Below are positions 6,579 through 41,914 of a stretch of DNA of 64,000 nt, piece by piece; position 1 is the stretch's first letter; each line of letters opens with the position of its first letter. Origin of the DNA: Parvibaculaceae bacterium (GTDB lineage: Bacteria; Pseudomonadota; Alphaproteobacteria; Parvibaculales; Parvibaculaceae); the NCBI GenBank assembly GCA_028283765.1, contig JAPWJY010000008.1, positions 744,001 to 808,000 of the forward strand, given 5' to 3'. A program made the translations under genes and the position numbers. The notes beneath the pieces are model-generated. The model saw nothing but the letters and a program-made list of their open reading frames with translations, searched no databases and was not told the origin of the DNA.

Positions 6579-7703
6579 CTACGCCTGTTTGCGCAGGATC
6601 ACATTGCCTGCGGAATAGCCGGCCCCGAAGCTGCATATCAGCCCCAGATCGCCTTCCGACAGATCTTCGCTGAATTTGCTGAAGGCGATAATGGAGCCTG
6701 CCGAACTGGTGTTGGCATATTCCTGGAGGATATTGGGCTGCTCCATCGGGGCGGGCTCGCGGCCCAGCACCTTGCGGCCGATGAAATCATTCATGCCCTT
6801 GTTGGCCTGATGCAGCCACATGCGCTTGAGCGATGCGGGCTCCAGCCCTTCAGCCGACAGATGATCAAGGATGAGCTGGGCCACCATGGGCACCACTTCC
6901 CTGAAAACCTTGCGGCCCTCCTGCACGAACAGCTTGTCCTTTGCGCCGATGCCTTCCGGGGCGGCGCGATTGAGGAAGCCGAAATTGTTACGGATATTAT
7001 TGGAGAATTTCGTGCTGAGCCGGGTGGAGATGATTTCCCATGCGCCTTTGGCGGTGCAGGTCTCCGCGCGCTCCACGATGATTGCGGTCGCGACGTCGCC
7101 GAAAATGAAATGGCTGTCGCGGTCGCGGAAATTGAGGTGGCCGGTGCAGATCTCGGGATCGACCACGAGGATCGCCCGGGCGTGTCCGGCCCGCACCATG
7201 TCGGCGGCGGCCTGAATCCCGAAGGTGGCGGAGGAACAGGCCACGTTCATGTCGAAGCCGAACCCCTCGATGCCGAGCAGTTCCTGCACCTCGACGGCGA
7301 TGGCGGGATAGGGGCGCTCAAGATTGGAGCAGGCGACGATCACGGCATCGATGTCGGCGGGCGTCTTGTTGGCCCGGGCCAGAGCCTTGTGCGCGGCCGC
7401 CACGGCCATTTCAGCGAGATAGGAGGGCTCGTCGTTCGCGCGCTGGGGCAGACGCGGCGCCATGATCTCCGGGTCCAGAATGCCCGACTTGTTCATGACA
7501 TAGCGCGCTTCGATGCCCGAGGCCTTGCAGATGAATTCAGCGCTCGATTCCTGAAGAGCCTCGACCTCGCCAGCGGCAATGGCTTCCGCATGGGCCTCAT
7601 TATGGCTGCGGACGTAGCTGTTGAAGGAATCAACCAGTTCAGCATTGGAGATTGCATGGGGAGGTGTGAAAACACCCGTGCCACTGATAACAATTTTAGT
7701 CAA
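6579..7703 (-). CDS. Beta-ketoacyl-ACP synthase III-like condensing enzyme
   Basis: This 374-residue thiolase-fold protein carries the complete FabH triad: Cys156 in NVACSSATFG, His298 in WLHQANKGMN and Asn331 in EYANTSSAGS, with GFGAGYS-type C-terminal loop (CSFGAGYSAG). It is longer than ordinary FabH (about 320 aa) and has an N-terminal insertion rich in Glu and Ala. From memory it strongly resembles the Pseudomonas PA3286-type synthase, which condenses medium-chain acyl-CoA from beta-oxidation with malonyl-ACP, so a beta-oxidation to fatty-acid shunt is the likely role. Translation appears to begin at TTG (7703), preceded by AAGGGTC; no ATG fits the conserved N-terminus. Confidence 0.85.
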   Translation of the reverse strand: MTKIVISGTGVFTPPHAISNAELVDSFNSYVRSHNEAHAEAIAAGEVEALQESSAEFICKASGIEARYVMNKSGILDPEIMAPRLPQRANDEPSYLAEMAVAAAHKALARANKTPADIDAVIVACSNLERPYPAIAVEVQELLGIEGFGFDMNVACSSATFGIQAAADMVRAGHARAILVVDPEICTGHLNFRDRDSHFIFGDVATAIIVERAETCTAKGAWEIISTRLSTKFSNNIRNNFGFLNRAAPEGIGAKDKLFVQEGRKVFREVVPMVAQLILDHLSAEGLEPASLKRMWLHQANKGMNDFIGRKVLGREPAPMEQPNILQEYANTSSAGSIIAFSKFSEDLSEGDLGLICSFGAGYSAGNVILRKQA

Positions 7704-7825
7704 TTACAGACCCTTGTTTTTCTTCATCCGGCCGATCCTCCCGAACCGTGGTCCGGGACTATGGCAGCGAAGGGCTGCTTTCGACAAGCCCGGAAAAAAT
7801 GTTATGCGCGCCCGGTGAGATCAGG

Positions 7826-8401
7826 TCAGGCCAGCGCCTTGCAGGCTTTATGGCGGGGGCAGGTGACCAGATGATCGTTCACCATGCCGACGGCCTGGGC
7901 GAAGGCGTAGATAATGGTCGGCCCGCAGAATTTGAAGCCGCGCCGTTTCAGCTCCTTCGCCAGAGCCCGGCTCATGTCGGTTTCGGCGGGGATCTGGCTC
8001 ATGCTGCGCCAGCGGTTCTGGACCGGCTTGCCATCGACGAAGTCCCAGATAAAGCCCGAAAATCCCTCGCCTTTTTCCATGATGTCGAGCCATGCCCGGG
8101 CGTTGAGGATGGCGCCCTCGATCTTGCCGCGATGCCGCACGATACCGGCGTCGCCCAGCAGGCGTTCCACGTCGGCTTCGCTCCAGCGGGCGATGCGCTC
8201 GGGCCTGAACCCCTCGAAGGCAGCCCGGAAATTCTCCCGCTTGCGCAGGATGGTGATCCACGAAAGACCGGCCTGAAAGCCGTCGAGCACGAGTTTTTCG
8301 TAAAGAGCCCGGTCGTCGTGCTCCGGCACGCCCCATTCCTCGTCATGATAGGCGCGATAGAACGGGTCTTCGCCCGGCCACGGGCAGGAGGAATCAGCCA
8401 T
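7826..8401 (-). CDS. tag: DNA-3-methyladenine glycosylase I
   Basis: Tag (191 aa) is the base excision repair enzyme that removes 3-methyladenine from alkylated DNA. The N-terminal CPWPGEDPFYRAYHDEEWG, the LVLDGFQAGLSW segment and the C-terminal NDHLVTCPRH are family signatures. The residues of the zinc snap are all visible: Cys6, His19, His177 and Cys181. The start ATG overlaps the stop of the upstream ygfZ-like gene by eight bases, so the two are co-translated; the ketoacyl synthase gene follows after about 120 bases. Confidence 0.95.
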   Translation of the reverse strand: MADSSCPWPGEDPFYRAYHDEEWGVPEHDDRALYEKLVLDGFQAGLSWITILRKRENFRAAFEGFRPERIARWSEADVERLLGDAGIVRHRGKIEGAILNARAWLDIMEKGEGFSGFIWDFVDGKPVQNRWRSMSQIPAETDMSRALAKELKRRGFKFCGPTIIYAFAQAVGMVNDHLVTCPRHKACKALA

Positions 8402-9275
8402 CCGCGTCTTCCTCCTCGGCCATGGAGATATGGAACGTCGCCCAGAGGGGCTTTTCGGGGAAAAGCTCGGCCGTGCCGGCCTCGATGATCGCCCCGTCTA
8501 TCAGGTCGAGGCGGAGCAGCGCGATCAGCCGCTCGCCCGCATTGTCCACCGAATGGACCGTGCCGACCTCGCGCTGGCCCACCTTCACCGGGCTGCCGGG
8601 GGAGGGCATGTCGCCTTCCACGCGGCAGGGCAGCAGGCGCTTGCGCACCACGCCCCGGCGCTTGGTCCGCGACGTGACTTCCTGACCGACAAAGCAGCCC
8701 TTCTGGAAATCGATGCCCTGAAGATCGTCGAGATTGGCCTCCAGCGGGAAACTCCGTTCCGCCTCGATGTCGAAGGGCGCTTCCCCGACGCCGAACGCGA
8801 CGCGGCGGGCATGGTAGTCCGCCGCCGGAACGAGCCTGACGCCCTCCACCGCCGGTTCGCTGCCCGGCAGGATCGCCCGCCAGCCCATGAGCGCCGTCCG
8901 GGGATCGGGATAGGCAAGGCCGGGGAGGGAGGGAGGCTCGCCCTCGCCCCACAGCGCGGCGACCGAATAGTTCGCGCTCTCATTGGCCAGTGTCACCTTG
9001 GCGCGCAACCGGTAGAGGATCAGGCGTTTCAGCAGGTCGGCGGCGCGCGCCCTTTCGCAGTCGAGCAGGTAATCGTCGCCGTCCCTGACGATGAAGAAAT
9101 CGAACAGGAACTTGCCCTGCGGCGTCAGCAGGGCCGAATAGACGGCGTTTTCAGCCGTGGCGTTCTCGATATTATTGGTGATCAGGGCCTGAAGAAAACC
9201 GCTTGCTTCTTCCCCCCCGATGCGCAAGACGCCGCGCCCGGGCAGAAAGGCTGCCGTGTAGCTGCTGATCGACAT
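8394..9275 (-). CDS. ygfZ: YgfZ/GcvT-domain folate-binding protein
   Basis: A 293-residue protein of the YgfZ family, which binds tetrahydrofolate and helps maintain Fe-S enzymes and tRNA modification enzymes such as MiaB. The signature KGCFVGQEVTSRTKRRG (residues near 200) contains the family K-G-C-[FY]-x-G-Q-E motif. The N-terminal GcvT-like part includes FLQALITNNIE and LTPQGKFLFDFF. The ATG at 9275 is preferred to a GTG three codons upstream. It overlaps tag by eight bases and is divergent from the glycosyltransferase gene. Confidence 0.9.
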   Translation of the reverse strand: MSISSYTAAFLPGRGVLRIGGEEASGFLQALITNNIENATAENAVYSALLTPQGKFLFDFFIVRDGDDYLLDCERARAADLLKRLILYRLRAKVTLANESANYSVAALWGEGEPPSLPGLAYPDPRTALMGWRAILPGSEPAVEGVRLVPAADYHARRVAFGVGEAPFDIEAERSFPLEANLDDLQGIDFQKGCFVGQEVTSRTKRRGVVRKRLLPCRVEGDMPSPGSPVKVGQREVGTVHSVDNAGERLIALLRLDLIDGAIIEAGTAELFPEKPLWATFHISMAEEEDADG

Positions 9276-26135: not shown

Positions 26136-27317
26136 GTGCAGGTGTCCCCGGAAAAGACTGAAGCGCCATCGCGCGGGCTGATTGCGCTGCTGGCAACCGC
26201 ATGCGGCCTGATCGTCGCCAATATCTATTATGCCCAGCCCCTTATCGGGCCGATCAGCCGCTCGCTCGGGCTTTCGCCGCAGGCTGCGGGGTTGATCGTG
26301 ACCATGACACAGATGGGCTATGGCGCGGGGCTGCTGCTCATCGTGCCGCTGGGCGATCTGTTCGAGAACCGGCGTCTCGTCATCACCATCGTGCTCGGCG
26401 GCGCGCTCGCGCTCATGGCCGCCGCGCTTTCAACCCATGCCTTGCCTTTTCTCACGGCCGCCCTGTTCATTGGCCTCGGCTCGGTCGCGGTGCAGGTGCT
26501 CGTGCCCTATGCCGCCCACCTCGCGCCGGACGCCGTGCGGGGCCGGGTCGTCGGCACGGTCATGAGCGGGCTGATGCTCGGCATCATGCTCTCGCGGCCC
26601 GTGGCGAGTTTCATCACCCATGTGCTGTCGTGGCACGCCGTTTTCATGATCTCGTCGGCGATGATGGTGGCGCTGGTGGCCGTGCTGCGGTTCGCGCTGC
26701 CGCCGAGGCAGCCGGCCCATGTTCTGAGCTACGGGGCGTTGCTTGCGTCCATGGGCGGGCTGGTGCGGCATACGCCGGTTCTGCGCCGCCGGGCGCTCTA
26801 CCATGCGGGCATGTTCGGCGCTTTCAGCCTGTTCTGGACGGCGGTGCCACTGTTTCTGACCGAAACCTTCCATCTGTCGCAGGTGGGGATTGCGCTCTTT
26901 GCGCTGGCGGGCGTCGCGGGGGCCATCGCTGCGCCGATTGCCGGGCATGTCGCGGATCGCGGCTGGACGAAACCGGCGACCGGCCTCGCGATGCTCGCCG
27001 GGGCGCTGGCGTTCCTGATCAGCCGGTTTGCCTTGTCAGGGTCGAATGTGGGGCTCGGCATTCTGGTCGCCGCCGCGATTCTGCTGGATTTCGGCATCAC
27101 CGCCAATCTGGTGCTGGGTCAGCGCGCCATCTATGCGCTCGGGGCCGAGCTGCGCGGCCGCCTCAACGGCCTTTACATGGCGATCTTCTTCGTGGGCGGG
27201 GCGGTCGGCTCCGCTCTGGGCGGCTGGGCCTATGCCCATGGCGGCTGGCCGCTGACGGCATGGGCCGGTCTGGCGCTGCCCGTGCTGGCGTTCGCCTATT
27301 ACCTGACGGAGCGGTAG
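26136..27317 (+). CDS. MFS transporter
   Basis: A 393-residue major facilitator superfamily protein with about 12 hydrophobic segments. The start is GTG (26136 or 26142). The N-terminal half holds LIVANIYYAQPLIGPISRSLG and the loop 2-3 motif PLGDLFENRRLV, characteristic of the YnfM/YgaY-like sugar-efflux or drug-efflux MFS group; a related GHVADRGW motif follows in the second half. It probably exports a small molecule by proton antiport, substrate unknown. It follows the tRNA gene and is convergent with the zinc-finger protein gene. Confidence 0.85.
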   Translation: MQVSPEKTEAPSRGLIALLATACGLIVANIYYAQPLIGPISRSLGLSPQAAGLIVTMTQMGYGAGLLLIVPLGDLFENRRLVITIVLGGALALMAAALSTHALPFLTAALFIGLGSVAVQVLVPYAAHLAPDAVRGRVVGTVMSGLMLGIMLSRPVASFITHVLSWHAVFMISSAMMVALVAVLRFALPPRQPAHVLSYGALLASMGGLVRHTPVLRRRALYHAGMFGAFSLFWTAVPLFLTETFHLSQVGIALFALAGVAGAIAAPIAGHVADRGWTKPATGLAMLAGALAFLISRFALSGSNVGLGILVAAAILLDFGITANLVLGQRAIYALGAELRGRLNGLYMAIFFVGGAVGSALGGWAYAHGGWPLTAWAGLALPVLAFAYYLTER

Positions 27318-29825: not shown

Positions 29826-29857
29826 AATGAAAAACCTCTCCCCGCCGGGAGAGGTTT
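29826..29857 (-). terminator. Rho-independent terminator for the sulfatase-SDR operon
   Basis: AAACCTCTCCC (29832-29842) and GGGAGAGGTTT (29847-29857) form an 11-bp stem with a CGCC loop. Read on the minus strand it is followed by TTTTTCATT, so it ends the minus-strand operon and may also work weakly for the convergent hydrolase gene. Confidence 0.8.
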
Positions 29858-29874
29858 CTGCAAGGCGTTCCTGT

Positions 29875-30666
29875 CTAGCGCGCCGTCAGCGGCGCATAGC
29901 CAAGGTGCATGCCGGCGTCCGTAATCAGCGTTTCACCGGTGATGTGCTCGCCGCCCTCATCGCAGAAGAACACCACGGATTCGGCGATGTCCTCGGGCGT
30001 GCCCGCCCGGCCGAGCGGCGTCGATTGCTCCTGCCCCTTCTGGATCGCGGCGAACTTGTCCGCGCCGAAGCGGTCGAGAAACCAGCGTGTGCCGATAAAG
30101 CCGGGGCAGACGGCGTTGACGCGGATTTCTGGCGCGAGCGAGCGGGCGAGCGACAGGGTCATGGTGTTGAGCGCGCCCTTGGAGGCCGCATAGGCGACCG
30201 AGGAGCCGATGCCCATCACGCCCGCGACGGACGAGATATTGACCACCTTGCCCTTGCCCGCCTCTTTCATCGCGGGTGCGCAGGCCCGGATCATCTGGTA
30301 GGCGGAGACCACGTTGATCTTGTAGATCCACAGGAAATCGTCGGCCTGCAAGGCGTCGAGATTGGCGTGGTCGGCGAATTTGGTCGACCCCGCATTGTTG
30401 ACCAGAATATCGATGCGGCTCCATTTCTCGTAAGCCGCATCGGCGAGGCGGCGGCAGTCCGCGTCTTCCGAAACGTCCGCCTGCACCATGATCGCATCGA
30501 CGCCGAGCGCCTTCACCGCCGCCATGGTTTCGGCGGCTTCCTTTTCGCTCTTGGAATAGTTGATGACGATGTTCGCGCCGCGTTCGGCGAGCTTGAGCGC
30601 GACAGACGCGCCCAGCCCCATGGCGGAGCCGGTGACGATGGCGACTTTACCCTGAAGATTGCTCAT
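29875..30666 (-). CDS. SDR family oxidoreductase (last gene of sulfatase operon)
   Basis: A 263-residue classical SDR with TGSAMGLGAS cofactor loop, VNNAGSTKFAD, catalytic Ser in NISSVAGVMG, YAASK and NAVCPGFIGTRWF. The start MSNLQGKVAIVTG at 30666 follows the preceding SDR stop by seven bases, so the two are co-translated. It probably oxidises a hydroxyl group on an intermediate of the pathway encoded by the sulfatase operon, in the cytoplasm with NAD. Confidence 0.85.
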   Translation of the reverse strand: MSNLQGKVAIVTGSAMGLGASVALKLAERGANIVINYSKSEKEAAETMAAVKALGVDAIMVQADVSEDADCRRLADAAYEKWSRIDILVNNAGSTKFADHANLDALQADDFLWIYKINVVSAYQMIRACAPAMKEAGKGKVVNISSVAGVMGIGSSVAYAASKGALNTMTLSLARSLAPEIRVNAVCPGFIGTRWFLDRFGADKFAAIQKGQEQSTPLGRAGTPEDIAESVVFFCDEGGEHITGETLITDAGMHLGYAPLTAR

Positions 30667-30673
30667 ATCTGCC

Positions 30674-31540
30674 TCACGCCGTCTTTTCGTTCTGGGGGGC
30701 AAGGCCGGCCAGGAATTCCCCGATGGCCTTCTCGAAATCGAGTTTTTCGCCAAGGCCCCGCATCGGTCCCGCCGTCAGGCCGCCATCGACCGCGATGGCC
30801 TGGCCGGTCACGAAGGTCGAGCCGTCGCTGGCGAGGAACAGGGCCAGTTCCGCGATGTCGTTGGGCAGGCCCGAACGCGGGATCGGCTGGATTTTCGCAA
30901 GGCGGGGCTTCATGAATTCCGCGAACTGGTCGGCCACCTGCGTGCCGAGGCCGAGCACGTTGCCGAAGATCGAGGTGGCGATGCCGCCGGGGCAGATCGC
31001 GTTCGAGCGGATATTGTAGGGGGAAAGCTCAAGCGCGGCGCAGCGCGCCAGATGCAGCACAGCGGCCTTGCAGGCTGAATAGACCATGGGCCCGTAGCCC
31101 GCCTGCAGACCGGCGACGCTGGCGGTGGAGATGATCGAGCCTGACTGCTGGGCCTTCATGTGCGGCACGGCATATTTGTAGCCGAGGAACACGCCTTTCA
31201 GCAGCACGCCCACGGTTTCATCGAAGCCGGCCATGTCGATGTCCTGCAACTCGCCGCCGACGCCGCCAAAGCCCGCATTGTTGAAGATCACGTCGAGCTT
31301 GCCGTATTTCCCGATGGCATGGGCGACGAGGTTCTTCACATCCTCCTCTTGCGCCACGTTGGTGCGGCAATAGGAGACGATGCCGCCATGCTCGCGCTCC
31401 AGCGCCTCGCCCTTGTGGTCCTGCAAGTCGCCGACGACGACCTTTGCGCCTTCCTTCAGGAACAGTTCCACCGTTCCAAGTCCGATCCCGCTGGTGCCTC
31501 CGGTGATGATGGCGACCTTGCCTTCGAGCCTTCCGCCCAT
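30674..31540 (-). CDS. SDR family oxidoreductase (third gene of sulfatase operon)
   Basis: A 288-residue SDR with TGGTSGIGLG, FNNAGFGGVGG, catalytic Ser in ISTASVAGLQ, YSACK and NAICPGGIATSIFG. The region LVVGDLQDHKGEAL after strand two suggests NAD preference because of the Asp. The C-terminal tail is longer than in the neighbouring SDR. It is similar to 3-alpha-hydroxysteroid or cyclohexanol dehydrogenase-type SDRs, but I would not assign a substrate. AGGAAAC precedes the ATG. Downstream of the enoyl-CoA hydratase gene by 52 bases. Confidence 0.85.
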   Translation of the reverse strand: MGGRLEGKVAIITGGTSGIGLGTVELFLKEGAKVVVGDLQDHKGEALEREHGGIVSYCRTNVAQEEDVKNLVAHAIGKYGKLDVIFNNAGFGGVGGELQDIDMAGFDETVGVLLKGVFLGYKYAVPHMKAQQSGSIISTASVAGLQAGYGPMVYSACKAAVLHLARCAALELSPYNIRSNAICPGGIATSIFGNVLGLGTQVADQFAEFMKPRLAKIQPIPRSGLPNDIAELALFLASDGSTFVTGQAIAVDGGLTAGPMRGLGEKLDFEKAIGEFLAGLAPQNEKTA

Positions 31541-31592
31541 GATGTGTTTCCTGTCCTGTGCGTTGTTTTTAGTTTTTAATTATTGCCGTGAA

Positions 31593-32432
31593 TTATTCTC
31601 CCCGGAATTGGGGCTTTCTCTTTTCCATGAAGGCGGTGCGGCCCTCGGTATAGTCCTGTGAGGCAAAGCAGCGCTCGATCAGCGCCTCGCACGCCTCCAC
31701 ATTGAACTCGCCTACGACCTTGAGGCCTTCATCCACGATCCGCTTGGCGGTGGCGACGGTGAGGGGCGCATTCTCCGCGATGGTGTCGCAAAGCTCCTTG
31801 ACGGTCGCCTCCAGCGCCTCGCGCGGCACGACCCGGTTGACGAGGCCCATGCGCCAGGCTTCCTCATGGGTGAAGCGGCGCGCCGTGAAGAACACTTCCT
31901 TGGCGTAGGCGGGACCGACGACATCGACGAGGCGGTGCGTGCCCTCGATGCCATAGGCAAGGCCGAGCTTCGAGGCGGGGATGCCGAAGGTCGAGCCTTC
32001 CGCCGCGATGCGCAGGTCGCAGGAAAGCGCGATGCCGAGCCCGCCGCCGATGCAATAGCCGTCGATCATGGCGATGGTCGGCTTCTCGAAGCTCGCGATG
32101 CGCTCGAAGGCGGTATTGGTTTTCGCCTCGTAAAGCTGGGCGCGCAGCACGTCGGAGCGGGTTTCCTCAAACTGGGAAATGTCCGCCCCGGCGACGAACG
32201 CCTTGCCGCCCGCGCCGGAAAGAACCACGGCGCGCAGCGCGGGATCGGCGGCGAACTGGTCGAGAATGACCGGCACCGCCTCCCACATATCGAGACTGAC
32301 CGCGTTGTGGCGGGCCGGGTTGTTGAAAACAATATGCCCGACCGCGCCGTCGATGCGGGCGATCACGCGGGAGGTGGGTGACTGGACCAAGGACGCGACC
32401 TCGACAAGATGGAATCTCAAGGCCGCTACCAT
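31593..32432 (-). CDS. Enoyl-CoA hydratase/isomerase family protein (sulfatase operon)
   Basis: A 279-residue crotonase. Oxyanion-hole segments are AFVAGADISQFEE and MIDGYCIGGGLGIALSCDLRIA; the catalytic-site region is KLGLAYGIEGTHRLVD, and the family C-terminus EGRTAFMEKRKPQFRGE is intact. At the active-site positions Glu in GIEG is kept, while the other side reads FGIPASKLGLAYG, so hydration activity is plausible. The ATG at 32432 lies 30 bases after the sulfatase stop. It implies that the sulfatase product is processed as a CoA thioester. Confidence 0.82.
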   Translation of the reverse strand: MVAALRFHLVEVASLVQSPTSRVIARIDGAVGHIVFNNPARHNAVSLDMWEAVPVILDQFAADPALRAVVLSGAGGKAFVAGADISQFEETRSDVLRAQLYEAKTNTAFERIASFEKPTIAMIDGYCIGGGLGIALSCDLRIAAEGSTFGIPASKLGLAYGIEGTHRLVDVVGPAYAKEVFFTARRFTHEEAWRMGLVNRVVPREALEATVKELCDTIAENAPLTVATAKRIVDEGLKVVGEFNVEACEALIERCFASQDYTEGRTAFMEKRKPQFRGE

Positions 32433-32461
32433 GTCACCGCGGTTACGCTCCGGCAACCTCC

Positions 32462-33997
32462 TTAAACGGGGGCCACGCATTCCAGTTTCGGTTCGTGAAC
32501 TGGCGGCTGCGCATCCTTCAGATCCGCGAGAAGATCGGATTTGAGCGCGGCGTATGCCGGGTCGTCCCACAGGTTGCGCCATTGGCGTGGGTCGTTCTTC
32601 AGGTCGTAAAGCTCGCCCTCGCTGCCGTCATGGATCGTGCCCGGCAGGCAGGCGGTAACGATATAGCCATCGCGATAAAGCGTGCGCAGGCCCAGCACGG
32701 AACCATTGGGGTGCACGCAGTCCCATTCGGTGAAGACCCGCTCGCGCTTCTGCTTTTCCGCCTCGGCGTCGCTTTGCGGCATCGGCGCGCCCTGCATCCA
32801 GTCTGGCACGGGCAGGCCCGCGATGTCGCAGAAGGTGGGCGCAAGATCGACCTGACCCACGGGCTTCGCCACGGCGGCGGGCGTAACACCTGCACTCTTT
32901 GCCGGACGCCAGATCATCGGCAGGCGCATCAGGGCATCGACATGGTAGGGGCCCTTGAACAGCAGGCCGAATTCGCCCTGGAACTCGCCATGATCGGTGG
33001 TGAAGACCACATCCACATCGTCGCCCCAGCCACGGGCCTCGATGGCGGCCATGATCTTCGCGATCGCCTCGTCGATCAGTTCGTTTTCCACATTCGTGAC
33101 CGCATTGATCTCGCGCACCTGATCCGTCGTCATGTCGCAGGCACGGAAGGCAGGCGGCGCCTCGAAATTGGTGACGTGGGAACCCGTGTAATAGTCGAAC
33201 CACTGGCGCGGTTTGCCCTTGAGGATTTCCTCGATCTTCTCGCGGCTGCCGGGATAGAACTCGGGCAACGGCGTGTCGCGCCAGTTATGGCGATGAAGTT
33301 CGGATGCCGGCGGATCCCACGGGTGATGGGGATCTGGAAAGCTGACCCAGCAGAAGAAATCGTCTTCCTGTTCCAGCGTCTTGAGCCAGGCGACCGTGCG
33401 CTCGGCCACCCAGTCGGTATGATATTGTTCGCGCGGGATGGGGTTCACATGCATCTGGCAGGCCCCCGTATCGCCGCCGCCCGCTGCGTTCACCTGAAAA
33501 TTGTCGTCGAGGTTGCGGTAGAACATGCCGAAGGCGGCCGGGTTCACTTTGCGGAGATATTCAGCATAGTGAAGGATAAGGGGCGAGTGGGTCGCAAGCT
33601 CCATGTGCTCGAAGCCGCGATGCGGGCCATATTCGCCGAGGCGGGCCATGCGGTTTTCATAGAAAGCCTGCTTGGGATCGAGGAACGGTTCGAAATGGGC
33701 CTTGCCGATGAGCGCCGTGCGGTAGCCCGCCTTGTGCAGATAGTCCGCCACGCTCGGCGCGTCCTCCGGCAGCGGCACCCCGTTCATCCAGACGCCATGG
33801 GTCGAGACATACTGGCCCGAGATCATGGTCGAGCGCGCGGGCATGCACACCACGTTCTGGTTGTGGGCGCGGGTATAGTTGATGCCCTCGCGGGCGAACC
33901 CGTCGATGGTCGGGGTCCGGCACTGCTTGTTGCCATTGGCGCCGATGGCGTCGAAACGCATCTGGTCGGTGGTGATGAACAGGATCTTGCGTCCCAT
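32462..33997 (-). CDS. Type I sulfatase (formylglycine-dependent arylsulfatase/choline-sulfatase-like)
   Basis: A 511-residue sulfatase of the alkaline phosphatase superfamily. Metal residues are in ITTDQMRFDAIG near the N-terminus (Asp-Gln) and TTDHGEFQGEFGLLFKGPYH (Asp-His) in the second half. Cys51 in VVCMPARSTMISG is in the C-x-P-x-R motif, the site converted to formylglycine, so a maturation enzyme must be encoded elsewhere. There is no signal peptide, so it should work in the cytoplasm on an imported sulfate ester. It is the first gene of an operon with a crotonase and two SDRs, a catabolic context. Confidence 0.88.
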   Translation of the reverse strand: MGRKILFITTDQMRFDAIGANGNKQCRTPTIDGFAREGINYTRAHNQNVVCMPARSTMISGQYVSTHGVWMNGVPLPEDAPSVADYLHKAGYRTALIGKAHFEPFLDPKQAFYENRMARLGEYGPHRGFEHMELATHSPLILHYAEYLRKVNPAAFGMFYRNLDDNFQVNAAGGGDTGACQMHVNPIPREQYHTDWVAERTVAWLKTLEQEDDFFCWVSFPDPHHPWDPPASELHRHNWRDTPLPEFYPGSREKIEEILKGKPRQWFDYYTGSHVTNFEAPPAFRACDMTTDQVREINAVTNVENELIDEAIAKIMAAIEARGWGDDVDVVFTTDHGEFQGEFGLLFKGPYHVDALMRLPMIWRPAKSAGVTPAAVAKPVGQVDLAPTFCDIAGLPVPDWMQGAPMPQSDAEAEKQKRERVFTEWDCVHPNGSVLGLRTLYRDGYIVTACLPGTIHDGSEGELYDLKNDPRQWRNLWDDPAYAALKSDLLADLKDAQPPVHEPKLECVAPV

Positions 33998-34127
33998 GAT
34001 CTTTCCCCTGGCTGCGCTCCTTGATCCCCTTGGGGGTGGCGCTCTGGTTTCCTTCCTGCCATATTAATGACATCCATCAAATTTGTCAGCAGGAACGCGA
34101 ACTATATTCGATTTTGCGGCGAAGGGA

Positions 34128-34150
34128 TACTATATTGTTTTAATATAGTA
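34128..34150. promoter_or_regulatory. AT-rich perfect palindrome between the sulfatase operon and cysE
   Basis: TACTATATT (34128-34136), spacer GTTTT, AATATAGTA (34142-34150): 9 of 9 complementary bases. A partial copy, ACTATATT, occurs at 34101-34108. It looks like a dimeric-repressor operator serving the divergent sulfatase operon, cysE, or both; there is no regulator gene next to it. Confidence 0.5.
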
Positions 34151-34171
34151 TTGACAGGCCCCTGCGGGGTT

Positions 34172-39916: not shown

Positions 39917-41914
39917 CTATCCTCCGACCGCGCCGCCGTCCTTGCGGCGGATCGCGAGGACCGAAGGACGCGGCGGCATGTCCGGCTTGAAGTCCGGCCA
40001 GCGGGTTGCCGGGTCCTCGAAGGTGGATTTGCGCTCGAAGCCCTTGAATTCCCCGGTGCCGTCGGAAGCGGGATGTTGCACGGCGACGAAGAAGGTGGTG
40101 CCGTCCGGGGTGAAGCAGGGGCCGCACATCTCCGCCCCCACGGGCACGCGAAAGAGCATATGGCCCGTGCCGCGCCCCTCGCCTTGCGTTTCCAGACCCC
40201 AGATACCGTCCGCCGTGCCGGTGGTTCCAGCCCAGTCGTCCCCCTGATCGGTCGCGACCCACAGACGCCCCTTGGCGTCGACCGCCAGATTGTCGGGGCA
40301 GGCGAACCAGCCGTTTTCCGTGATGTTCTTGTTCCAGCTTGCGCCTGTGGCCGGGTTCTTCGGGTTGCCGCACAAAACCAGCAGATCCCAGGTGAAATGG
40401 TCGCTGCCATGGTCGTCGAGGCCGGGCGTCAGCTCCATGATCTGGCCCCAGATATTGGCGGGGCGTGGGTCGGGGCCGTTGAGGTTTGCCGTGGCGCGCC
40501 TGGAATTGTTGGTGAGCGAGAAATAGACCTTCTTGGTCAGGGGATTGGGCTGCACGTCCTCGGTCCGGTCGAGCGGCGTCGCTCCCAGAATGTCGGCGGC
40601 CCGGCGCGCCTCGATCAGGACGTCTGCCTGGCTGAGAAAGCCGTTGGTGGCGTCGAGCCCGTTTTGTCCATGGATGAGCGCCAGCCAGCGGCCCGAGCCG
40701 TCTTCCTCGAAGCGGGCCACATAGAGCGTGCCATTGTCCAGAAGCGTGCGGTTTGCTTCCCGGTTTTTCGTGTCGAACTTGTCCCGGGTCACGAATTTGT
40801 AGGCATATTCGAAGCGCTGGTCGTCGCCCATATAAAGCGCGAGGCGGCCATCGTTGGTGGGCGCGTTTTCGCAGCCTTCATGCTTGAAACGGCCAAGCGC
40901 GGTGCGTTTGACCGGCATCTGTGTTGGGTCGAGCGGATCGATTTCGACGACCCAGCCGAAGCGGTTCGGCTCGTTGGGCTCCTGGCCTATATCGAAGCGC
41001 GGCACATAACGGTGCCACGGATAGGGGTGCTCCGCCGGGATGCCCATGCGCTGGTAGTTCTCGGCCTCCGAGGCGCTGTTGGCCTCGCCGCCGAAATAGT
41101 AATTGATGTTTTCCTCGCAGGTGAGATAGGTGCCCCAGGGTGTGATGCCGCCCGCGCAATTGTTGACCGTGCCGGTGACGGTGCGCCCTTCCGGGTCGGT
41201 GGAGGTGGCAAGCCTTGGATGCCCGGCGGCGGGCCCGGTGAAGCGGATGGCCGTTTCCAGCGTCGAAATGCGCCGGTTGAACGGGCTGCCGGTCACCACC
41301 GACCAGTTGCCCTTGCCGTCGCGCTGTATCTCGACGATCGAGTTGCCATGGGCGGCCATGCAGGTCTTCACCTGCGCCTCGCTCAGGGCAGCTGCCACAT
41401 TGTCGTCGCCAGCGGGCAGGCCGGGAAACATCAGCTCGTCATTGGTATATTCATGATTGACGCAGAGCAGACCGTGGTCGCTGGCTCCCGAGCCATAGGG
41501 CAGCGGCACGAAGCCGATATAGTCGTTGTTGTAGCCGAAGCGGCCAAGCTGGCCCTGTGCGTCGAGGGTATGGGGATCGAAAGCGGGCAGGCCTGGTTGG
41601 AGTGCGTCGCCCCAGCGGATCAGCACGTCCGCGTTATGGTCGGCCGCGACATGGTGGGTGGTATCGACGCCATGGGCGATTTCGGGAAAATTGAAGGTGA
41701 AATCCGGTGCGTCGGGTTTCTTGTCACACCCGGCAAGTCCGGTCAGACCTATCCCCGCGCCCGCCATCAGGCCAAATCCTGCCGCGCCCTTGAGCAGGCC
41801 GCGCCGTGCGATGCGGCGCTCCCATAGGGTATTCAGCGACGGGCTCGCCGGACGCTCGATGGCGCGGTCCTCCTGCTCTTCCCGGCGTTCACTCAAGGAC
41901 TTGTGCTTCGTCAT
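39917..41914 (-). CDS. phoX: PhoX family alkaline phosphatase (DUF839)
   Basis: A 665-residue secreted protein. The N-terminus is long and polar and then carries a twin-arginine signal (ERRIARRGLLKGAAGFG, near residues 32-48) ending in GLAGCDKKP; the Cys could also be a lipobox Cys. The mature part is a DUF839/PhoX domain with LLCVNHEYTNDELMFP, NNCAGGITPWGTYLTCEEN, KHEGCENA and a CPDNLAVDAKGRLWVATDQGD segment, which are the calcium/iron-binding regions of PhoX. It should hydrolyse phosphate monoesters outside the cytoplasm. Direct repeats upstream only weakly resemble a Pho box. Confidence 0.88.
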   Translation of the reverse strand: MTKHKSLSERREEQEDRAIERPASPSLNTLWERRIARRGLLKGAAGFGLMAGAGIGLTGLAGCDKKPDAPDFTFNFPEIAHGVDTTHHVAADHNADVLIRWGDALQPGLPAFDPHTLDAQGQLGRFGYNNDYIGFVPLPYGSGASDHGLLCVNHEYTNDELMFPGLPAGDDNVAAALSEAQVKTCMAAHGNSIVEIQRDGKGNWSVVTGSPFNRRISTLETAIRFTGPAAGHPRLATSTDPEGRTVTGTVNNCAGGITPWGTYLTCEENINYYFGGEANSASEAENYQRMGIPAEHPYPWHRYVPRFDIGQEPNEPNRFGWVVEIDPLDPTQMPVKRTALGRFKHEGCENAPTNDGRLALYMGDDQRFEYAYKFVTRDKFDTKNREANRTLLDNGTLYVARFEEDGSGRWLALIHGQNGLDATNGFLSQADVLIEARRAADILGATPLDRTEDVQPNPLTKKVYFSLTNNSRRATANLNGPDPRPANIWGQIMELTPGLDDHGSDHFTWDLLVLCGNPKNPATGASWNKNITENGWFACPDNLAVDAKGRLWVATDQGDDWAGTTGTADGIWGLETQGEGRGTGHMLFRVPVGAEMCGPCFTPDGTTFFVAVQHPASDGTGEFKGFERKSTFEDPATRWPDFKPDMPPRPSVLAIRRKDGGAVGG

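Follow-up and report, generated by a model that had tools for sequence, protein, structure and literature searches.

A predicted cytoplasmic cysteine-type sulfatase from a Parvibaculaceae genus in which no known sulfatase maturase was found

Introduction

The closest described relatives of the protein treated here include the choline sulfatase SmCS/COS of Sinorhizobium meliloti (6fny, 6g5z) and the dimeric arylsulfatase SpAS1 of Silicibacter pomeroyi (4upi), in both of which, according to excerpts of PMC5870055, the metal is held by Asp, Asp and His, a Lys contacts a Gln, and a His lies by the nucleophile. Here we describe a type I sulfatase gene, together with the three genes that follow it, in a Parvibaculaceae bacterium (assembly GCA_028283765.1, contig JAPWJY010000008.1, positions 744,001 to 808,000; this stretch of 64,000 nucleotides, whose own numbering is used below, is called the window). 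The sulfatase belongs to a familiar class of enzymes, but its maturation context is unusual: it carries the CxPxR motif recognised by the systems of the formylglycine-generating enzyme (FGE/SUMF1) and the anaerobic sulfatase-maturating enzyme (anSME), as described in part of PMC6189696, and neither maturase is detectable in its genome.

Several systems frame this comparison. The S. meliloti genome, unlike the one studied here, has a putative FGE, and recombinant choline sulfatase with an unmodified Cys54 performed many turnovers, with a kcat of 0.27 per second (both in passages of PMC6189696). Sulfatases expressed in Escherichia coli gain formylglycine through an activity described as unidentified in passages of both PMC6189696 (2015) and PMC5870055 (2018). 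In Mycobacterium tuberculosis without FGE, residual sulfatase activity has been ascribed to other sulfatase types (excerpt of PMC3141025), so sulfatase activity alone will not settle the question of maturation. The genome that encodes an alphaproteobacterial formylglycine sulfatase of Shinella also encodes two FGEs (excerpt of PMC11500405), and absence of FGE is therefore not general in Alphaproteobacteria. Our literature search on maturation, made at title level and mostly among open-access papers, found no report of a sulfatase-carrying genus without FGE.

Results

Active site, fold and location of the sulfatase

A score of 121.6 bits against a cut-off of 25 places the protein in Pfam Sulfatase (PF00884), and its nucleophile motif reads C51-M-P-A-R55. 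In an alignment of 51 sequences chosen out of all matches, D11, Q12, C51, P53, R55, K99, H101, D335, H336 and K348 are invariant in 51/51, in agreement with the choline sulfatase/SpAS1 site as far as it is described in the excerpts of PMC5870055. The AlphaFold model made with this alignment has a pLDDT of 91.3; the predicted metal-site residues are D11, D335 and H336, the first of which aligns with the metal-ligand Asp of known sulfatases. Strand 4–12 of the model already holds D11, which leaves no space for a normal signal peptide, so that the sulfatase would not be exported in that way. These observations bear out an earlier, sequence-only reading of this DNA, which had noted the C-x-P-x-R motif and the missing signal peptide, and support its view of a cytoplasmic sulfatase; the protein has a sulfatase-type active site that is complete, and its gene heads a compact same-strand cluster. 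From the active-site residues in both sequence and model, we infer that the protein would catalyse the hydrolysis of an organic sulfate ester.

The closest solved structure by sequence is SpAS1 (2.6e-37), and the fold matches comprise S1 carbohydrate sulfatases, phosphonate monoester hydrolases (PMHs), SpAS1/2 and choline sulfatase, at 20–25% identity. SpAS1 aligns with the studied sulfatase over the metal-site, CxPxR-region and K-x-H segments, the motif Cys not being read as Cys in the SpAS1 chain record; identity is 21–25%. Choline sulfatase shares the type I fold (Z about 34), the D-Q and D-H pairs and CxPxR, but at about 22% identity, and the studied sulfatase scores below the cut-off of the choline-sulfatase NCBIfam TIGR03417 (138 versus 433.45 bits), as it does for the PehA phosphoric/sulfuric ester hydrolases of NF045661 (153.2 versus 900 bits). 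Sulfated steroids, bile alcohols and secondary alkyl sulfates had been suggested as substrates; no result of ours points to any of these.

Between the source genome and its one congener, the dN/dS of the sulfatase is 0.076, indicating purifying selection; for the same genome pair we obtained 0.058 for cysE, 0.092 for the crotonase gene (partial) and 0.168 for the gene of an FAD protein (partial).

Maturases in the source genome and its congener

The source genome (G000) is rated 100% complete and lies in 9 contigs; its congener (G001) is 68% complete. Three PF00884 proteins are encoded in the source genome, all of the Cys type with CxPxR. The second sulfatase gene, for a 59% identical paralog on contig C4, is followed by a same-strand gene resembling AMP-binding acyl-CoA ligases (the two at L114:8716-10323 and 6792-8564). 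The third, whose product has a CSPTR motif, lies on C3 (region L115:7133-10394) downstream of a putative fucosidase gene, the product of which looks to us like a GH29 alpha-L-fucosidase.

A search for an FGE had been proposed by the sequence-only reading; in the source genome it returned no PF03781 match, either at E<=0.001 or at E<=10. PF03781 was likewise without a match in the 68% complete congener, and an FGE model built for this study from 7 rows, including two from the genomes outside the family considered below, gave no match at E<=1e-15 in either genome. The anSME model TIGR03942 had no match in G000 (E<=0.001) and none in G001. Thus neither genome of the genus yielded an FGE with the Cx4C cysteine pair or a TIGR03942 protein to accompany its sulfatase.

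FGEs of other Parvibaculaceae

Elsewhere in the family, FGE-type proteins are common, with a PF03781 match better than 3e-63 in 35/40 genomes. G029 (best match 2.7e-62) was left ambiguous because non-FGE paralogs without Cx4C score 1e-46 to 1e-62. The remaining four are both genomes of the source genus, which carry the sulfatase, and both g4 genomes, which have weak PF03781 matches only (2e-21, 6e-23) and no sulfatase match. No family genome (0/40) passes the anSME cut-off, and relatives below it occur in 2/40.

All FGEs that we read, from 22 family genomes, have the Cx4C pair (22/22). An N-terminal hydrophobic segment is present in 19 of them at a KD17 of at least 2.0 and was recognised by eye in the other three, whose sequences were cut short by the pattern; on this hydropathy, Parvibaculaceae FGEs look exported in 22/22 genomes read. 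Second PF03781 proteins lacked Cx4C in 7/7 sampled cases and also looked exported by eye. At 6 of 7 longer loci (L125, L126, L127, L129, L130 and L131), the gene directly upstream of FGE is sulfatase-like; none of this kind was found there in L128. Both of the FGE-adjacent sulfatases that we read (L125, L126) have a C-A-P-S-R motif and a hydrophobic N-terminus. No cytoplasmic FGE was seen in the 22 family genomes, although the studied sulfatase is predicted to be cytoplasmic, and these FGEs are therefore unlikely to activate it. The exported-looking FGE loci are L120-L131 and L196-L206, in contrast to the description of prokaryotic FGE as cytosolic in part of PMC4505483.

The prevalence of FGE in the family, together with the division of the source genome into 9 contigs, would suit an alternative explanation, in which the protein is a normal formylglycine-dependent sulfatase and the FGE of its genus was missed through an assembly gap or extreme divergence. 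We regard this as unlikely, given the empty search even at E<=10, the absence from both genomes of the genus, and the exported appearance both of the 22 family FGEs and of the sulfatases adjoining them in L125 and L126.

Distribution and maturases outside the family

Among 98 genomes (the source genome and relatives), 37 have a sulfatase match at E<=1e-30, namely 33/40 Parvibaculaceae and 4 others, the matches in 3 of these others being weak. Scanning public genomes confirmed 114 stretches; from these we retained 80 loci, 59 of them outside the family and all 59 in metagenome-assembled genomes (MAGs) by title. They belong to Pseudomonadales, other gamma-, alpha-, beta- and deltaproteobacteria, Myxococcota, Binataceae, Acidimicrobiia and others.

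We searched for maturases in the genomes of 49 of these 59 loci. The FGE model made here matched at E<=1e-15 in 32 of 51 genomes searched, and one best locus was examined for 30 of the 32. FGE was present in 9/49 outside genomes (E<1e-80), with Cx4C in 9/9; Cx4C was absent from the other 21 fetched loci with an FGE-model match and from 12 sampled weak-match loci, whose genes partly overlap the other sample. anSME exceeded its cut-off in 2/49, so that 38/49 outside carrier genomes had neither a recognisable FGE nor an anSME. If half of the genomes should show a maturase, the binomial probability of 11/49 or fewer is 7e-5, under an assumption of independence that related MAGs violate.

Nor did the neighbourhoods outside the family reveal a linked candidate maturase: the sulfatase itself and a cluster of open reading frames that are putatively antisense to it (8 loci) aside, no neighbour cluster occurs at more than 6/59 loci. 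Of 216 nearby genes (home-made gene caller), we took the 94 that lie no more than 500 bp from the sulfatase, at 56/59 loci, and compared them with the first 94 of 140 distant genes drawn randomly from 267. The commonest neighbour cluster (6/59 loci) is NUDIX, a family accounting for 8/94 immediate neighbours versus at most 1/94 distant genes; the cluster lies directly before the sulfatase in the gammaproteobacterial loci L056, L059, L063, L071, L072 and L080.

The genes that follow the sulfatase

The four genes (Table 1) run on the minus strand in the order sulfatase, crotonase-fold protein (ECH), SDR2 and SDR1 (short-chain dehydrogenases, SDRs), with intergenic gaps of 29, 52 and 7 bases and a terminator-like hairpin at the end. 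Open reading frame coordinates and the hairpin confirm the layout given by the sequence-only reading, except that it had put the first gap at 30 bases. From spacing and terminator, the three genes 3' of the sulfatase are probably co-transcribed in the source genus. The scanned region holds 10 terminator-like sites, against 3.5 expected from shuffles, and the G+C content of the cluster (0.633) equals that of the window (0.631).

Table 1 Features of the sulfatase cluster and its upstream region in the window
Feature	Position	Strand	Details
Type I sulfatase (alkaline-phosphatase superfamily), predicted cytoplasmic	32462..33997	-	511 aa, ATG/TAA; Pfam Sulfatase 5.5e-35; PDB matches BT1918, PMHs, SpAS1
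Crotonase-fold protein (ECH)	31593..32432	-	279 aa; Pfam ECH_1 8e-57; NCBIfam PRK06127 2.5e-113
SDR2, short-chain dehydrogenase	30674..31540	-	288 aa; Pfam adh_short_C2 3.7e-57; YSACK motif
SDR1, short-chain dehydrogenase	29875..30666	-	263 aa; Pfam adh_short_C2 1.5e-58; YAASK motif
Intrinsic terminator-like hairpin at cluster end	29830..29859	-	13 pairs, T tail, directly after SDR1 stop
Perfect palindrome, operator candidate	34127..34151		10-bp arms; between sulfatase and divergent cysE

Tight spacing and a terminator would also be expected of a dedicated sulfate-ester catabolic operon, in which the sulfatase would free a hydroxyl, the SDRs would oxidise it and the crotonase would act on a CoA thioester. 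Within the family the set is well kept. Of 23 Parvibaculaceae loci, 20 could be counted (L004, L028 and L045 break off within the sulfatase or crotonase gene), and 17/20 have the sulfatase-ECH-SDR2-SDR1 order on one strand, the exceptions being L011 and L015, which end before SDR1, and L014, which lacks an SDR1 above 50% identity. But the order is confined to one family and lies within a larger syntenic block: the genes cysE, DAO, SDR3, ABH and M20 are also syntenic around the cluster in most of those loci, so common ancestry of the region suffices to explain the kept order. In relatives SDR1 stands 484–2509 bp from SDR2, compared with 7 bases in the window, with a PilZ gene between them in both loci tested with Pfam (L007, L019). 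In two relatives, the gene before the sulfatase on its strand encodes an alpha/beta hydrolase (L019:9135-9956 and L021:9021-9920).

The outgroup G043, from another family, has the sulfatase together with cysE and the DAO gene, and ECH, SDR2 and SDR1 were not found within 19 kb there. No relative of these three genes above 50% identity occurs at any of the 59 outside loci (0/59; many contigs are short), the closest being an SDR at 48% identity in L082. Distant crotonases (26–33%) are present at 8/59 and distant SDRs (27–48%) at 13/59; two of them lie on the sulfatase strand and end just short of the sulfatase, a crotonase in L039 (33%) by 23 bp and an SDR in L081 (31–33%) by 18 bp. Among immediate neighbours SDRs number 4/94, versus at most 1/94 distant genes, while CoA-enzyme families are not enriched: none has two or more members among the 94 immediate neighbours, and the 94 distant genes include Ligase_CoA (3), AMP-binding (2) and Acyl-CoA_dh (2). 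The expectation of the sequence-only reading, that sulfatase orthologs elsewhere would be accompanied by these genes, has thus largely failed at the 59 outside loci, distant crotonases and SDRs at some of them notwithstanding, and in view of the few adjacent cases a loose link with such genes may exist. At the level of titles and abstract openings, we found no published set of sulfatase, crotonase and SDRs.

The proteins themselves fit such a pathway poorly. Aligned to solved hydratases, the crotonase has GGGLG and IPA where these carry GGGCE and QPE, and G and A occupy the two glutamate positions in 21/21 rows (the window protein and 20 orthologs). We take these glutamates to be the two catalytic residues of canonical enoyl-CoA hydratases. 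With both missing, the crotonase falls outside that class and is unlikely to carry out standard enoyl-CoA hydration by the textbook mechanism, which leaves the proposed beta-oxidation-like route unsupported. The two dehydrogenases had been described as NAD-type; by the usual cofactor rule, this probably holds for SDR2, which has an Asp after beta-2, while the INYSKSE segment of SDR1 makes that protein probably NADP-like.

Even with the conserved order in the family, the ligase-like gene after the C4 paralog, the adjacent genes of L039 and L081 and the excess of SDRs in its favour, a dedicated operon of this kind seems to us improbable, and the SDRs and crotonase have at most a possible link with the desulfated product. 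To infer a desulfation and beta-oxidation pathway takes more than a CxPxR motif next to a crotonase and SDRs.

Upstream of the sulfatase, the palindrome of Table 1 overlaps a minus-strand sequence that resembles a promoter -10. We rejected it as the operator of a regulon: the sole exact copy in the source genome is at C3:778129, and near-copies, at 4 other places with 3 mismatches each, are scarcely above a reversed-pattern control (5 versus 2, forward strand). No RNA element was found between cysE and the sulfatase, Rfam giving just one tRNA in the window. The nearest transporter-like gene seen encodes an MFS_1 protein (26136-27317, on the strand opposite the cluster), no transporter search having been made. 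Further away (39917-41914, minus strand), a 665-aa protein with a twin-arginine-like start presumably resembles PhoX/DUF839 phosphatases.

Discussion

Taken as a whole, the evidence makes it moderately probable that the protein is a cytoplasmic, metal-dependent type I sulfatase that acts on a small organic sulfate ester and works without FGE or anSME. It would hydrolyse the ester inside the cell with the active-site set of the arylsulfatase/choline-sulfatase branch, in which D11, D335 and H336 would hold the metal, Q12 would contact K348, and R55 and K99-x-H101 would complete the site, C51 being the nucleophile or its precursor. Since neither FGE nor anSME was found and the FGEs of relatives look exported, C51 would be matured by an unrecognised activity or used unmodified. 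On the first of these routes, an unrecognised cytoplasmic activity would oxidise C51 to formylglycine, as in E. coli; on the second, the enzyme would use the unmodified cysteine and turn over more slowly, a behaviour published for recombinant choline sulfatase. We prefer the formylglycine route.

Several points weigh against this interpretation. Absence of FGE and anSME was judged by homology, which could miss an FGE that has diverged strongly or a gene that falls into an unsequenced gap between the 9 contigs. Loss of FGE is not demonstrable by synteny, as the FGE-block flank tested has no ortholog in the source genome: this conserved gene, PHA-synthase-like in our estimation, has just 35–36% matches there, so that there was no vacant locus to examine. 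The view that FGEs of the family are exported comes from hydropathy in just 22 sequences, and the selection estimate from one genome pair. Outside the family, the broad PF03781 family has a match in 43/49 genomes, most of which we called non-FGE from score and missing Cx4C, and radical-SAM relatives below the anSME cut-off occur in 6 other genomes (best G102, 6e-38, and G120, 9e-31). Cytoplasmic-looking FGEs in two outside genomes (L155, L158) could be used by some members of the clade. The 49 genomes are all MAGs, of unstated completeness and partly related, and the binomial probability is just a guide.

The weakest rival would make the protein chiefly a phosphonate monoester hydrolase or phosphodiesterase of the same superfamily. 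It draws on the PMHs of Rhizobium, Burkholderia and Agrobacterium (2vqr, 2w8s, 4uph), which share the fold and rank with the best structural matches (Z about 37), and on two features common to PMHs and the studied sulfatase, the Asp-His pair and a Gln that follows the metal Asp (passages of PMC5870055 and PMC12421950). It is very unlikely, as choline sulfatase and SpAS1 are set apart from RlPMH at 2/11 active-site residues (PMC5870055, in part). In the studied sulfatase K99-x-H101 is invariant and aligns with the K-x-H of SpAS1. We assume that the two differing residues are the K and H positions, and that this pair sets the studied sulfatase apart from PMHs.

Returning to a sulfatase that works without FGE or anSME, its distribution suggests, more tentatively and at somewhat under even confidence, that the cytoplasmic Cys-type sulfatases of a widespread clade may rely on an undiscovered activation independent of both enzymes (a third formylglycine system, possibly that of E. 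coli) or on catalysis by unmodified Cys, with the FGEs of Parvibaculaceae serving exported sulfatases only. A genus with three Cys-type sulfatases, of which the one tested is under purifying selection, and with no known maturase found would be a natural test system for a third route to formylglycine or for true cysteine catalysis.

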